46,711 bases of DNA from Oligoflexales bacterium (GTDB lineage Bacteria > Bdellovibrionota_B > Oligoflexia > Oligoflexales > Bog-1112). Below the pieces are notes generated by a model. It had not been told where the DNA came from, ran no database searches, and worked only from the letters and a program-made list of their open reading frames with translations. Position 1 is the first letter of the stretch. Each line of letters begins with the position of its first letter. The stretch covers positions 1-46,711 of the forward strand of contig JABSRF010000006.1 of NCBI GenBank assembly GCA_013215275.1, given 5' to 3'. This document shows positions 26,447-33,752 of the stretch, in pieces. A program made the translations under genes and the position numbers.

Positions 26447-27085
26447 CTAAAAAGGGTGAACTACTTCCAAGTTTGCTATGCCATAAAGTGAGCCGCTAAT
26501 GATCCCAACTTGAACAGCGTTGGTTGCATTAGCTAAACAACGGGGTCTAACTTCTAAAGATCCCACTCCACAAGCATCTGTGCACCATTCGGTCTCAGGG
26601 GTCACGATTCCCTTGTATCGGTCTAGAGCTTGGTTAGCAGGGTTGAGTGGGTCCATAATTCCGGCTAATAAAAGGGGTTGGAAAGCGATCCCAGAGACGG
26701 GGACCCACGCGTTTGCATCATTTGCAAAATCAGGGCGTTCTCCACCGATCACCACATCGATAGGGCCGTCTTGCTCTGCTGGTAAAATAGACCTACGCTT
26801 TTCCACGACGAATCGAATCGGCACCTCATTAACATAGTCGGCATTGACAACGTCAAAACAAGCCAAGGGCAAAGGGTCGGAAACGGTTATCCCTTGTGGC
26901 AATAAAAAACGAATGCGCATGTCATTGGCAGGTAATTTGGTGTCGGTGCAATTCAATGCACAAACCCCAGGAGCTTCTGCGAAGTCGGGTTCGCCTGCGC
27001 ATCCAATCTTTAGGAGGCTTAAGGCAGAGATTAAAGGTAATGTTTTTTTTATGGTTAAGAAAATCCTCTTGAAGCGACCTATCAT
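26447..27085 (-). CDS. Putative lipoprotein downstream of pilQ
   Basis: Signal peptide ending SLLKIGC (lipobox-like), followed by a Cys-containing exported domain. Spacing suggests the pil operon. Confidence 0.6.
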   Translation of the reverse strand: MIGRFKRIFLTIKKTLPLISALSLLKIGCAGEPDFAEAPGVCALNCTDTKLPANDMRIRFLLPQGITVSDPLPLACFDVVNADYVNEVPIRFVVEKRRSILPAEQDGPIDVVIGGERPDFANDANAWVPVSGIAFQPLLLAGIMDPLNPANQALDRYKGIVTPETEWCTDACGVGSLEVRPRCLANATNAVQVGIISGSLYGIANLEVVHPF

Positions 27086-27112: not shown

Positions 27113-30100
27113 TTAGTAGTATTCTTCACCTTGGCCTTGCTCATACTCATCCGCTGCTTCACCCTCATCCTCACCTTGCTCATATGATTCAGCATCGTTA
27201 TAACCTTGTTCGCCTTGCTCATAGTTGCCTTCGGCACCATTTTCACCCTCAGCTCCCTGGTTACCATAGTAGTTGTCTCCTCCAGCATTATTAGCTGAGC
27301 CAAAGTTGTCGCTTTGTCCGTAGTTGTCTCCAAAGTTGTTGTATTCCGATCCGCCTGCATTGTTACCTACGTTGTTTTCAAAGCTCGAGGTTTCGCTAAG
27401 AGATCGATCACTATTAATGACGGTGGGAGTCACCATGATAATTAGCTCTCGCTTGCTCTCTTGATTGGTTTTGCGTCTAAAGAATACTCCGAGGATTGGA
27501 ATGCTTGATAAAAAAGGAACTCCCGAATATTCGTGGGTGTATTCGGTAGTGTAGACTCCTCCGATGACGGCTGTCTGGCCATTTTCCCTTAATAGCTTGG
27601 TTTTAATCACTCGGGTGTTTTTGTCAGGGATCGCTTTGTTGCTTGCGATTGCGGAGGAGTTTTCTACTTCAATATCCATTTGCACAGCACCATCTGCAGT
27701 GATATGAGGGGTTACCGTGAGTTTGAGGGCGTACTCAACATCGGTTAAGCGGTCTTCCCCATTCCCTACCGGGATGGGTTGGTAGATGATCTGCCCTACC
27801 TTTGTTTCAGCTTTTTCATTATCTAAGACCACAATACTGTTATTCTGGAGGCTACGGACTTGATTTTGCTGCTCTGCCATCCGCAACCTTATGTCCAACT
27901 CAAATAAGTTGCCGATACTCCCGAAATGGAGGTCTATGGCAGATCGATTTGATAGGGAAGCAGGCTCAATTCCAGTATCGACACTGAAAGCTGAGTACAT
28001 TTGATTAGGAAAGACCAAGTTACCTAGACCTAAACCTCGGCTTTGATCTGTCCTCATTGGCATAGCCCAGTTAATCCCTAGTTGGAGGTTGTCATTTTTA
28101 AGGACTTCTACGATTCTCGTGTCGACTTTTACCTGTGGAGTCTGCAAATCAACTCGGTTTATGAGGGCCTTGATTTTTGATAGAGCTGTTGGAATAGCCT
28201 CCACAATGACTGAGTTTGTTCTAGCATCAGCCTCCACTCTGGTACGCTTATCATGCTTATAAGATTCCAGCATACTGGTGACAACTTTGACCACATCTGC
28301 TGCGTTGGCATAGGAAAGTCGTACAATAAGAACTTTCGTAGGGATAAGCCTTGAAGCACTTTCCCGAACTTTTTCAAGCTCTTTTTTCTCCTTATCAAGA
28401 GTGGATAAGCGGTCAATGCGAATGACATCTCCATCAAGCTTGGATAATCCTAGAGAGTGAGTCTCAAGAACAGCCTGAAGTGCCTGATCCCAGGGGACAT
28501 TGGTGAAGCTAAGGTCTACTTTTTCTCCTCCGACATCCTGAGGAAAGATAAAATTGACTCCATTTTCTGAGGAAAAGGTTCTAATCACTTCTTTTAAATT
28601 AGCGCCCTTGAAATTCATACTAATCGGCTGTAATGCCTGAGATCTAGCCTCTACTGCTTGATCTTGACCCTCAGTTTCTTCTCCTGATAAGTCGACATTG
28701 TCATAGTTTTCATAATCCTCTCCGTCAGCACCTTGGTTGTCAAAGAGGTTGTTTGAGTTTTCATTATCGAGATTACTGGTGTTGATGTCTTCATTTTCAG
28801 CTTGATTATTTTGGTCTAGGCCATTATCAAATTGATTTCCATCGGAGTTATTAAAAACATCATCACCTCCGTCTTGACCATTTTGGCCTTCGTAAGGTTC
28901 ATTGTCGTAGTAATCACCCTCAGCATAATTGTTTTCGAAATCATCTTGAGCAACTGCAAATAAGCTCAAGCTTTTAATGTCATACTCTCTCCAAAGAGTC
29001 TTGTTCATGGCGTTGTAGTTTTCGTCGTCATAGTTTTCATTGTCATAATTCTCGTCGTTTTCGTTATTATTGTTGTCGTCATAATCGTTGTCGTTGCTGT
29101 CATTTTCTACGGAATAACCATCTTGACTGAAATCGTTGTACTGATCGAAGTCAGATTCGCCTGTCTGATTGTTGTTGTTATCAAAGTTACTATTATTGTC
29201 ATTGTATTCTTCATTACCGAAGTTATCTTGATTCTCTCCTGTATCATCTACATAGCTGTCTAAACCATCCGAGACTCCTACCGGGTCATAGCCATCTGGT
29301 CCAATACTCCCCGCTAGTAGTACCGGGGTAATATCAGCATCACCGAGCACCTCAACTTCCCCACCTGGAGTTTGACCAACCTCATTGTTACCAAAGTATC
29401 GATCCGGGATTTTAAAATTGAGTAGGATATTACCATCATGTGAAAATAACTCAGGCTTTACTGCATCCCTCAAGGTGATAATGACATCGGTGCTATCGTC
29501 TTCACTGTGGTACTTGGTCCTGATGTAAGCTACTGGGCTCAAAAATTCACTGGCGTCTATAGGGCGTTTGAGCTTTTTGCGCATCTTTGTTTCGAGGAAT
29601 TTTATGGTCAACTCTGGTTGTCCAGCTGGGTTTTGACTTTGGGAGAACTTGTAAATCGGTTTGCCAATGGTAACCATTTCAACTTTTACCATGCTTTCCG
29701 ATTCCCGAAAATCTAATCCTAGCCACCATAAAACGTTATATAAGACCTCCTCGGCCACTGATTCTTCCATTTGCTCTTCTGGGGCGTAGTCGGAGTTTTC
29801 TGGTAAGGGGTTGTACTCCTCCTCGAGGGGAGGGATCTGAGCATTTGCGTTTTGGTCGCTGTTTTGATTTCCATAGCCTTGATTGTAGTTGAACTGATCT
29901 CCCGATGAGTCCTCAAAAAAGTTATTTCCTTCTTCATCGTAATCGGATTGTTCCGAGTCTTCGGAGTATTGGTTGGAGTATTGATCTGAGTTGCCCTGAT
30001 CGTACTCTCCTTGCTCACCGTAGTCTTCTTGTCCCTCATAACCTTCGTCGTCGTACCCCTCATTGGAGCCTTCACCCTCTTCTGGCGACCCGAGGTTACT

Positions 30101-30238
30101 GTCTCCTACAAAAAATCCAGGATCATTAGGATCTTGCTGAGGATCTTCTTGCTGTTCAGTGGTTGAGCAAGCTAAGAAAAAACTTGCCAAAAGGATAAAT
30201 GTCAGCATGAATTCAAAGGTGTGTGGTTTGGTCCGCAT
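27113..30238 (-). CDS. pilQ: Type IV pilus secretin PilQ with extensive Asn/Asp/Glu/Tyr-rich low-complexity regions
   Basis: AMIN-like region, STN-like PISMNFKGANLKEVIRTFSSENGVNFIFP, and secretin domain (VKVDTRIVEVLKNDNLQLGINW, GGVYTTEYTHEYSGVPFLSSIPILGVFFRRKTNQESKRELIIMVTPTVI). Confidence 0.93.
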   Translation of the reverse strand: MRTKPHTFEFMLTFILLASFFLACSTTEQQEDPQQDPNDPGFFVGDSNLGSPEEGEGSNEGYDDEGYEGQEDYGEQGEYDQGNSDQYSNQYSEDSEQSDYDEEGNNFFEDSSGDQFNYNQGYGNQNSDQNANAQIPPLEEEYNPLPENSDYAPEEQMEESVAEEVLYNVLWWLGLDFRESESMVKVEMVTIGKPIYKFSQSQNPAGQPELTIKFLETKMRKKLKRPIDASEFLSPVAYIRTKYHSEDDSTDVIITLRDAVKPELFSHDGNILLNFKIPDRYFGNNEVGQTPGGEVEVLGDADITPVLLAGSIGPDGYDPVGVSDGLDSYVDDTGENQDNFGNEEYNDNNSNFDNNNNQTGESDFDQYNDFSQDGYSVENDSNDNDYDDNNNNENDENYDNENYDDENYNAMNKTLWREYDIKSLSLFAVAQDDFENNYAEGDYYDNEPYEGQNGQDGGDDVFNNSDGNQFDNGLDQNNQAENEDINTSNLDNENSNNLFDNQGADGEDYENYDNVDLSGEETEGQDQAVEARSQALQPISMNFKGANLKEVIRTFSSENGVNFIFPQDVGGEKVDLSFTNVPWDQALQAVLETHSLGLSKLDGDVIRIDRLSTLDKEKKELEKVRESASRLIPTKVLIVRLSYANAADVVKVVTSMLESYKHDKRTRVEADARTNSVIVEAIPTALSKIKALINRVDLQTPQVKVDTRIVEVLKNDNLQLGINWAMPMRTDQSRGLGLGNLVFPNQMYSAFSVDTGIEPASLSNRSAIDLHFGSIGNLFELDIRLRMAEQQNQVRSLQNNSIVVLDNEKAETKVGQIIYQPIPVGNGEDRLTDVEYALKLTVTPHITADGAVQMDIEVENSSAIASNKAIPDKNTRVIKTKLLRENGQTAVIGGVYTTEYTHEYSGVPFLSSIPILGVFFRRKTNQESKRELIIMVTPTVINSDRSLSETSSFENNVGNNAGGSEYNNFGDNYGQSDNFGSANNAGGDNYYGNQGAEGENGAEGNYEQGEQGYNDAESYEQGEDEGEAADEYEQGQGEEYY

Positions 30239-31167: not shown

Positions 31168-31899
31168 CTATTTTTTCTTTTTTCCTTTTCCTTTTTTTGA
31201 TTTAGCTTGAGAGGCAGCTTCGATCGCAAGCTCCTCTCTGCGACTTAAGGTTCTGAATATGACCATGTCTGCAGTGCCCATAATCTTAGCATTCTCTCTT
31301 CTAGCCCTTTGAATGGCTTCTCTTTGTAAGTCCTTGTCCTTTATCGAGCCTGCAGCTTTTTCGGAGATGCTTTTTTCAATGTCTTTGGCTAACGATAGCT
31401 CAATATTTTTTATGTGAACTAACAAATCAAGGTGAACAACACGGTCAAAAAATGTAGCGATCTGCACATAAGTCCCAATAATCTGTAGTGATATTGGTAA
31501 CTCTACATACTTAAACACACCCCCAGCTGGAGCACCTTGTCCTGGTTGAAATAGGTTTAGATCGACTCCTACATCTTGGGCAATCATAGCAGTTTTTTGC
31601 AAAATTTTTCCCATCACGAATTCATCTGGTAGCTTCTTACTTGCTTTCGAAAGCTCTCCTTCCTTCAGGGCAAGTTTTTCTTCTAGCTTGGGAAGGTTTG
31701 CTTTTTGTTCCCTTGCTTTTTGAAACTTCGCTCTCGCAGCATTGCGGGTGTTGATCGCTCGGTCTAAGTCCTCCTGAAGGATCGGCCCCTCTTCAATGTA
31801 GGTACAGCTTCCAGGGACAGCTCCAATTATGATGATAATCAGGAGCTTCTTAACGATAGACATCTGTCTATAAGAAACTTTTATCGATTCAATATCCAT
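31168..31899 (-). CDS. pilO: Type IV pilus assembly protein PilO
   Basis: N-terminal TM, coiled coil, and VELPISLQIIGTYVQIATFFDRVVHLDLLVHIKNIELS. Confidence 0.87.
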   Translation of the reverse strand: MDIESIKVSYRQMSIVKKLLIIIIIGAVPGSCTYIEEGPILQEDLDRAINTRNAARAKFQKAREQKANLPKLEEKLALKEGELSKASKKLPDEFVMGKILQKTAMIAQDVGVDLNLFQPGQGAPAGGVFKYVELPISLQIIGTYVQIATFFDRVVHLDLLVHIKNIELSLAKDIEKSISEKAAGSIKDKDLQREAIQRARRENAKIMGTADMVIFRTLSRREELAIEAASQAKSKKGKGKKKK

Positions 31900-31916: not shown

Positions 31917-32663
31917 CTAATTCTCTGCGGGTACTGGGTTGTTGGATGCTCGCTCTTTATATTGAATGCTTACCTCGAACTTGGGGAATTTTGTCATTTC
32001 AGGGAAGTAAGTCGAACTCGTATCGCTTGCCCCTTTTGTTGTTTCTGTTAATTTTTGATCTTGTGTTGCTGCAAATGCTTTGTACTCTTTGTCATTTCGA
32101 CGTACTTGCTGTTTAGCCTGAGCATTGGCAATCGACACCCTTCCTAGGTAAGCAGCAGAAAAGAAAACCTGAGTTCTAAGGTCATTGGCATCAACTTCTT
32201 GCAGCCTTGTTGCTAGTAATGCAGACATAAACTCTGCGACTAGTAAGTTGTCGAATGAACGTCCGGTTAACCTAATGATGCTGTGATCAGACTCATCTTT
32301 CAAGTAGGTAAACCATAGGCCTTCTGGTTTTAAGTTTTGTAGATGCTCTAAGAGGATGATTGGTTTGTATCTTGATATTTTTGAAACGGTGATTTGTTTC
32401 AGGGAGTTTAGTTTTTTGTTGAGTTGCTCCACCTCTTTTGTGAGTTGGTCAGATCTCTCTAGATCTGGCTTGAGCCTGCGATAACTTCTCTCAAAATCTT
32501 TCCTCTCATCGTTCACACTCACGATCTCATCTTGTACCTGACCTAAGTAGAAATCCACTGCAGCGTAGCCACCGAAACCTATTAAAACAAGGAGAATTAA
32601 GTCTGGTAAAAACCAAAGTTTATTTTCTCGCTCTTCAATTGGTGACAGGTTAATATTAATCAA
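31917..32663 (-). CDS. pilN: Type IV pilus assembly protein PilN
   Basis: N-terminal ININLSPIEERE followed by TM and coiled coil; position between pilM and pilO. Confidence 0.87.
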   Translation of the reverse strand: MININLSPIEERENKLWFLPDLILLVLIGFGGYAAVDFYLGQVQDEIVSVNDERKDFERSYRRLKPDLERSDQLTKEVEQLNKKLNSLKQITVSKISRYKPIILLEHLQNLKPEGLWFTYLKDESDHSIIRLTGRSFDNLLVAEFMSALLATRLQEVDANDLRTQVFFSAAYLGRVSIANAQAKQQVRRNDKEYKAFAATQDQKLTETTKGASDTSSTYFPEMTKFPKFEVSIQYKERASNNPVPAEN

Positions 32664-32690: not shown

Positions 32691-33752
32691 TTAGACATTG
32701 TCTTCTACATCCCTCAAAGAGAGGCCTACGCCGATTCCGTAAAGGTGACCTTGGCTGAGGATACTCTCCATAGGAAATTTTCTGGGTATATCAATTTTAT
32801 GAAATGGATTAATGATATTCACAGGGATATTCATAGCTGACGCTATTGCTGAGTCTAGTCCGATGGTCCTAGATGCTCCCCCTGTAAGGAAAATTGCTGA
32901 CAGCGCAGTGAAGTCGAGGGGGGCTTCCCCACTTTGAAAAAAGAAGTCGGTTGTGACCTGAATTTCGGAAACTAGCTGTTTGTTTACCTGGGCTATCACA
33001 TTCTGCACATCCGGTGTAATCGATGCCCCACCCTCACTTGCAGCAATTTTAACGGCCTCAGCATTTTCAGGTGCGATGTTGAGTGCTGTCGAAAGGGCCT
33101 TTGTATAATTGTTTCCAGCAATCGCGATGTCACGAGTATAGAGGTGTTGCCCATTACCGATTAAGGAAACTTGGGCTGAAGATGCACCAATGTTTGTAAG
33201 TGCTATGAGCCCTTGAATCATTCCGAAGTTATATTCAAACATGTTGAAGGTAGCGAATACGTCGCATTCAATCACGGCTATTTTTAAGCCAACAGACTTT
33301 GCCACTGATATATGTTGATCGATGATATCTCGTTTAGCACCTATTAGCACGACGGAGCGATCTTGTTGATTGGGGTTTGGGTCTAAAATATGCCAATCGA
33401 AATGCAAGTCATCAATATCATGCTGAAAATGCTGTTCTGCCTCTGCCTCGATCATGTCAGCAAGTTCGGCTTCATCTTTGTTGGGGAAGTTCACTTTCTT
33501 AACGATGACAGAGTTGCCACCTAAGGACAGGCATGCCCTTCTGCGCATCGTGCTTAAACGCAAGCGTTTTACAAGCCTTTTCAAAGCTTGTTGTGCTGTG
33601 GGGATATCGGAAATAAACCCCTCATTTATCACCCCTTCGGGGACCAGCTCGATACCAACACTTCTCAGTTTCTTTTGATGCCCCCCAGAAAGCTCAACAA
33701 TCTTAATTGCAGAGGAGCCGATATCGACAGCAATGGGTGGTAATTTAAACAT
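32691..33752 (-). CDS. pilM: Type IV pilus assembly protein PilM
   Basis: IAVDIGSSAIKIVELSG, actin-like fold, PNKDEAELADMIEAEAEQHFQHDIDDLHFDWHIL, FLTGGASRTIGL. Confidence 0.93.
   Translation of the reverse strand: MFKLPPIAVDIGSSAIKIVELSGGHQKKLRSVGIELVPEGVINEGFISDIPTAQQALKRLVKRLRLSTMRRRACLSLGGNSVIVKKVNFPNKDEAELADMIEAEAEQHFQHDIDDLHFDWHILDPNPNQQDRSVVLIGAKRDIIDQHISVAKSVGLKIAVIECDVFATFNMFEYNFGMIQGLIALTNIGASSAQVSLIGNGQHLYTRDIAIAGNNYTKALSTALNIAPENAEAVKIAASEGGASITPDVQNVIAQVNKQLVSEIQVTTDFFFQSGEAPLDFTALSAIFLTGGASRTIGLDSAIASAMNIPVNIINPFHKIDIPRKFPMESILSQGHLYGIGVGLSLRDVEDNV

Follow-up and report, generated by a model that had tools for sequence, protein, structure and literature searches.

The window, the whole stretch of 46,711 nucleotides of an Oligoflexales genome analysed here, carries a pilM-pilN-pilO-pilP-pilQ run on its minus strand, in which pilQ is the final pil gene (Table 1). 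The pilQ reading frame encodes 1041 residues, and translation of the plus strand across the same interval is riddled with stops. Four Pfam domains were detected above their cut-offs, in the order AMIN (residues 175-266), STN/N0 (561-608), Secretin_N (638-702) and Secretin (788-941). The top NCBIfam match is the PilQ model TIGR02515, at 278.4 bits, which is about 6 bits below the membership cut-off of 284.35, and the GspD model TIGR02517 scores 194.3 bits against a cut-off of 351.35. The protein is identified as PilQ by its architecture, with these four domains in order, and by its operon, since the gene follows pilM, pilN, pilO and pilP. The nearest solved structure is that of Myxococcus xanthus PilQ (3jc8), which matches residues 532-944 with an E-value of 5e-55. 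The same genome contains further secretins, encoded by two adjoining genes on contig C667 (approximately 18.1-21.3 kb; frames of 807 and 688 residues) and by a fourth frame of 442 residues on contig C27.

Table 1. Features of the pilQ locus. Coordinates are positions in the window and residue numbers refer to PilQ.
Feature	Coordinates	Strand	Basis or remark
ORF212, uncharacterised Cys-rich lipoprotein, directly downstream of pilQ	26447..27085	-	adjoins pilQ in nearly all loci of the order
pilQ	27113..30238	-	ORF; Pfam AMIN, STN, Secretin_N and Secretin above cut-off; TIGR02515 best NCBIfam match; M. xanthus 3jc8
C-terminal low-complexity tail, residues 945-1041, net charge -22	27116..27406	-	composition; orthologue tails 24-176 residues
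Secretin barrel/gate domain, residues 786-944	27407..27883	-	Pfam; orthologue domain mapping
N1 (Secretin_N) domain, residues 633-710	28109..28342	-	Pfam; orthologue domain mapping
N0/STN domain, residues 537-611	28406..28630	-	Pfam; orthologue domain mapping
IDR2b, residues 441-536, net charge -26	28631..28918	-	composition
Conserved motif LSLFAVAQDD, residues 424-433, within IDR2	28940..28969	-	enrichment in orthologue linkers
IDR2a, residues 283-412, net charge -36, K/R absent	29003..29392	-	composition
Two degenerate 15-bp tandem arrays in IDR2a (DDENY-like units)	29016..29094	-	repeat search
AMIN domain, residues 167-282	29393..29740	-	PF11741, 24.3 bits against cut-off 20.5; segment conserved among orthologues
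IDR1, residues 25-166, linking the putative lipid anchor and AMIN, net charge -42	29741..30166	-	composition; Uversky index -0.60
Signal peptide and putative lipobox, residues 1-24 (LLASFFLA, C24-S25)	30167..30238	-	lipobox-like Cys in orthologues
pilP, 292 residues	30264..31142	-	PF04351
pilO	31168..31899	-	PF04350
pilN	31917..32663	-	PF05137
pilM	32691..33752	-	TIGR01175 above cut-off

Three low-complexity stretches of 142, about 226 and 97 residues lie around the AMIN-N0-N1-secretin core. The segments spanning residues 25-166, 283-412, 441-536 and 945-1041 consist to 70-76% of Asn, Asp, Glu, Tyr, Gln and Gly, and jointly contain two Lys/Arg residues, no His, no Cys and approximately 126 net negative charges. 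PilQ rings typically comprise 12-14 subunits, so that the segments of a single ring would together contribute well above a thousand negative charges. The initial annotation had described long N/D/E/Y/G-rich regions at the N-terminus, middle and C-terminus of PilQ, and these are real: when the best 60-residue window was scored in each of 179 ORFs of at least 100 residues, drawn from 223 kb of sampled sequence of this genome, PilQ ranked first for N/D/E/Y/Q/G (0.87; runner-up 0.70), for N+Q (0.40; runner-up 0.35) and for N+D (0.58; runner-up 0.35). The run quoted at that stage, NDNDYDDNNNNENDENYDNENYDDENYN, is present and located in IDR2. The accompanying statement that the secretin core is interrupted needs correcting: the Secretin domain itself is intact, one segment preceding AMIN, another separating AMIN from N0 and the third following the final secretin strand. 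That such segments are atypical of structurally known PilQ proteins is borne out by the position at which the N0-to-secretin match starts in those chains, residue 282-338 of 714-761 in several of them and residue 476 of 901 in M. xanthus PilQ. The sampled ORF nearest to PilQ in composition, L085:3885-5120 (+), is a lipoprotein-like frame rich in N/Q/D/E (0.70 in its best 60-residue window).

The synonymous codons for Asn, Asp, Glu and Tyr are mixed in pilQ (for example AAC 0.57 and AAT 0.43), and the segments are therefore not one recently slipped DNA repeat; a recent microsatellite is unlikely on the same grounds, tandem arrays being limited to two short, degenerate ones of 15 bp. An assembly artefact or collapsed repeats, raised initially as a possible refutation, can be rejected because independent orthologue assemblies have the same plan. 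Disorder was inferred from composition and the charge-hydropathy (Uversky) index, which places only 61-84% of the orthologue segments on the disordered side.

A secretin match was found in all 43 genomes of the order, many of them drafts, and 38 provided PilQ core sequence for a tree; a search for related loci in genome contigs returned only one distant Nitrospirota PilQ. Synteny of pilMNOPQ extends across the order, and domain mapping in the families with complete genes gives the succession lipobox, IDR1, AMIN, IDR2, N0, N1, secretin and tail, a plan that is thus order-wide and not peculiar to this pilQ. The folded domains (AMIN, N0, N1 and secretin) are nearly constant in length, whereas IDR1 ranges from 40 to 274, the AMIN-N0 linker from 85 to 398 and the tail from 24 to 176 residues. 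Composition turns over between groups, with N/D/E/Y predominating here, Q/N/F in G026, A/P/G/N in family f6, S/A/N in f11 and Y/N in G001, and the N/Q fraction of segments spans 0.05-0.52. Even in pairs from one genus IDR1 is mostly 29-43% identical, compared with 69-77% for AMIN, and short repeats of 4-9 residues occur in the orthologue segments (GYNNQ, NQQF, DNAT, YQQQEQQSE). Depletion of basic residues is a more lasting property, median K/R contents being 2.7-5% in the segments and 9-16% in the folded domains. Hence what is mostly kept among orthologues is low complexity and K/R depletion, but not the acidic, Asn/Gln or Tyr content.

The N-terminal module has been lost in some members of the order. 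Three members of family f1 with small genomes (G005, G006 and G008; loci L043, L042 and L041) encode PilQ proteins of 533-564 residues in which IDR1, AMIN, the long linker and the motif described below have gone together, and G006 has lost the lipobox as well, while that of G005 is doubtful; all three retain pilMNOP and ORF212. The possibility, likewise raised at the outset, that orthologues might lack the regions entirely is thus realised in part, as these three are without IDR1, AMIN and most of IDR2. A maximum likelihood tree of the N0-secretin core separates the order from the sister family f13 (97/98) and recovers f1 as one clade (100/98), within which the AMIN-less members sit on separate branches; the module has therefore been lost several times in f1. 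Two other genomes, G002 and G016, are scored as AMIN-less in the tree only because their contigs end inside the gene. In f13, PilQ lacks AMIN, its signal peptide is of the usual kind, N0 is preceded by a stretch rich in N/A/G/S, and the tail is rich in N/G; disordered tails thus extend more widely through the class.

Of 32 AMIN-bearing orthologues whose N-terminus is complete, 31 have a lipobox-like Cys where the signal peptide ends, and the residue at +2 is Ser, Ala, Val or Thr, never Asp. By this pattern PilQ is a predicted liposecretin, with a C24-S25 lipobox and no Asp at +2. A Cys is also retained in the N-terminal hydrophobic stretch of two AMIN-less proteins, those of G008 and G003. In Neisseria meningitidis it is PilP that is an inner-membrane lipoprotein (PMC3441751). 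PilP encoded in the window has a Sec-type signal ending SLIAQ and no usable lipobox, and among 35 PilP N-termini of the order and three of the outgroup, a few of them uncertain as start codons were picked mechanically, the signal in the order is mostly of Sec type, often ending xAQ or similar. Judged from these N-termini, the lipid seems to have shifted from PilP to PilQ in this order. No lipidated PilQ was described in the papers covered by a limited literature search. PilP proteins of the order also have long low-complexity extensions (158-507 residues in relatives), and PilP length shows a weak, non-significant correlation with PilQ length (rho 0.29, p 0.13). A TPR lipoprotein of about 292 residues encoded elsewhere in the genome (L083:8623-9501, contig C3) resembles the pilotins PilF, PilW and Tgl, scoring 64 bits against the TIGR02521 cut-off of 154, and similar proteins of 275-306 residues are found in other genomes of the order. 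The search with TIGR02521 gave no hit above cut-off in the 43 genomes, and in 13 of the 14 control genomes it picked up TPR noise. With a PilF/Tgl-like TPR lipoprotein present, lipidation of PilQ need not replace a pilotin.

The neighbouring ORF212 is present in 37 of 41 genomes of the order, and five sister-family genomes give a weak C-terminal match. It has seven invariant Cys residues, including that of the lipobox, in a pattern containing WCTDxCGVG...PxC. No match was obtained in Pfam, NCBIfam or the PDB, and an AlphaFold model of ORF212 alone has an uninformative pLDDT of 29. We regard it as a candidate new component of the type IV pilus, perhaps a secretin-associated lipoprotein.

Within the otherwise divergent middle linker we identified a conserved motif, [FY][ST][ILV]x[GAS]V[AG]QD[DN], which is seen mid-linker in ten families. 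The core V[AG][QA][DNSAG] occurs in 29 of 33 AMIN-N0 linkers, compared with a mean of 7.5 and a maximum of 15 in 500 shuffles, and the strict form V[AG]Q[DN] in 16, compared with 0.8; the shuffles ignore kinship among the sequences. Among 34 sequences from the ten families, Val is found in 33, Ala or Gly in all 34, Gln in 26 and Asp in 23, and two further members carry VGKDN at this position. The AMIN-less PilQ of G003, a genome that is 75% complete and 5% contaminated, has kept the motif. Because the rest of the linker differs greatly among the ten families, inheritance of the motif without selection appears unlikely. An AlphaFold model of residues 410-715 built from two sequences, PilQ and one relative, an input too shallow to be informative, has a pLDDT of 43, with about 25 at the motif, and shows no docking. 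We found no earlier description of the motif in a limited search of the literature.

In domain order and operon context this PilQ resembles those of M. xanthus (3jc8) and Pseudomonas aeruginosa (6ve2), which share AMIN, N0, N1 and secretin domains and a pilMNOPQ operon, but it has one AMIN domain where they have three and two, respectively, and differs from both in its N-terminal lipobox, its long acidic and N/Q-rich linkers and tail, and the VAQDD motif in the linker. The AMIN domains of the M. xanthus and P. aeruginosa proteins bind septal peptidoglycan (PMC5285504; PMC10653833). Low-complexity sequence in the N-terminal half of PilQ has a counterpart in the small basic repeats of N. meningitidis PilQ, which are polymorphic and reported to influence pilus formation (PMC3441751); the Neisserial repeats, basic in composition, are placed between two beta-domains, whereas the segments described here are acidic and N/Q-rich, flank a single AMIN domain and recur at the C-terminus. 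For lipidation the closest parallel is HxcQ of P. aeruginosa type II secretion, a liposecretin that takes the Lol pathway to the outer membrane (as cited in PMC3542185). HxcQ serves secretion rather than a pilus, and the self-piloting shown for it is one we only infer for PilQ. Finally, a 2015 survey of bacterial proteins with prion-like domains listed secretins as the most abundant two-domain combination, with 67 cases (PMC4606120). These share an N/Q-rich disordered region with the present PilQ, but theirs is said to sit between the two secretin domains, whereas here the segments precede N0 and follow the barrel and are strongly acidic. Prion-like regions in secretins (PMC4606120) and a low-complexity repeat in Neisserial PilQ (PMC3441751) are therefore already in print.

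We propose that PilQ of this order is a type IVa pilus secretin turned liposecretin, in which disordered tethers give AMIN access to peptidoglycan with the lipid keeping its hold on the outer membrane, a reading of the sequences that we judge plausible and evenly balanced between right and wrong. The N-terminal lipid would place the PilQ monomer at the outer membrane, and IDR1 would act as a flexible, unsticky leash that lets AMIN reach and sample peptidoglycan with the lipid staying in place. IDR2 would be a second leash, uncoupling AMIN from the N0-N1-secretin ring, such that monomers could be captured by peptidoglycan before they assemble and the ring could flex during pilus passage. With an outer membrane lipid anchor and an AMIN domain that needs the wall, length and disorder rather than sequence would be what is kept in IDR1 and IDR2, and selection on the leashes would act on length, disorder and K/R depletion. 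The C-terminal tail, which has no conserved sequence, may encircle the ring near the outer membrane, and the linker motif may be a short docking segment of beta type, fastening mid-leash to a folded partner, for instance PilP, N0/N1 or some other protein of the pilus. Peptidoglycan binding by AMIN brings PilQ to division sites and poles in P. aeruginosa and M. xanthus (PMC5285504; PMC10653833), and M. xanthus PilQ monomers, for which a diffusion-and-capture model has been proposed, are found in the outer membrane without the pilotin (PMC10653833). Our scheme fits that model, with the lipid providing outer membrane association. Against it, orthologues without the N-terminal module retain the pilMNOPQ operon, and the module is therefore not required for having these genes; the N-terminal Cys of the AMIN-less G008 and G003 proteins and the orthologue segments that the Uversky index places outside the disordered side also tell against it.

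The motif could instead be a cleavage site, possibly the c-region of a signal peptide that has become internal. Cutting between VA and QDD would then yield two products, an AMIN protein held by the lipid and a secretin detached from it, and the long PilQ would represent a lipo-AMIN gene fused to a pilQ whose own signal peptide was internalised. The site pattern of signal peptidase I does match at the motif: the residue at -1 is always Ala or Gly, that at -3 mostly Gly, Ala or Ser; a hydrophobic run precedes the site and acidic residues follow it. In the AMIN-less sister family, moreover, PilQ signal peptides end FANAQ, ALGQ, LEAQ or TAQ and lead directly into a disordered stretch and N0, many PilP signals of the order likewise end xAQ, and the motif lies 33-184 residues ahead of N0, a spacing in the range of that between cleavage site and N0 in the outgroup. 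However, the hydrophobic run is short and weak, its best 10-residue Kyte-Doolittle values of -0.3 to 2.1 mostly falling below those at N-terminal signals (mostly 2-3.5), and some -3 positions are Gln, Tyr, Leu, Met or His. The residue before Ala/Gly is Val in 33 of 34 sequences but variable in PilP signals, a better fit to specific recognition than to signal peptidase. A separate lipo-AMIN gene was not found in the sister family, and AMIN was detected in none of its genomes. We prefer a docking strand, given the fixed Val ahead of Ala/Gly and a hydrophobic run less strong than those of N-terminal signals, and consider cleavage unlikely; the fuller proposition of an order-wide two-piece pilus gate, in which a lipidated precursor of gene-fusion origin is cut at this site and an internal signal-peptide end serves for maturation, strikes us as slightly less likely still.

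Two further readings concern the segments themselves. Neutral or nearly neutral expansion by repeat slippage in tolerant, exposed linkers, with nothing specific done by them, would account for the 15-bp arrays in pilQ, the short repeats and compositional turnover among orthologues, and the three f1 members that manage without most of the segments. Yet hardly any AMIN-bearing orthologue in the order is without the segments, the mixed codons point either to old expansions or to protein-level selection on them, IDR1 and the tail are consistently poor in K/R, and a conserved motif stands mid-linker, so that we hold this account to be improbable. The initial annotation had suggested that the segments might be prion-like, separate into phases or bind metal, and in this way modify the pilus gate. 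A prion-like domain is recognised by at least 30 Asn plus Gln in 80 residues, together with low charge. PilQ reaches exactly 30, and 13 of 41 orthologue sequences attain that level, but the same 80 residues of PilQ hold 25 Asp/Glu and no Lys/Arg, and by composition the segments carry much more charge than a classical prion-like domain would allow. Prion-like regions have been reported as common in bacterial secretins (PMC4606120), and acidic stretches could hold divalent cations; His and Cys are nevertheless absent from the segments, and orthologue net charge per residue varies from -0.31 to about 0. That neither acidity nor Asn/Gln or Tyr content is conserved between families argues, at the level of sequence, against both roles, and we consider this reading very unlikely.

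The liposecretin with tethers, if correct, has consequences beyond this genome. Across this order it is apparently the pilus secretin, and not PilP, that bears the lipid anchor, with the peptidoglycan-binding part on long disordered leashes; if true, a built-in lipid and leashes would be a natural, testable answer to how PilQ monomers get to the outer membrane and the right peptidoglycan before the ring assembles. Repeated loss of the module in f1 offers a natural experiment, and the VAQDD motif a concrete handle on the PilQ linker.
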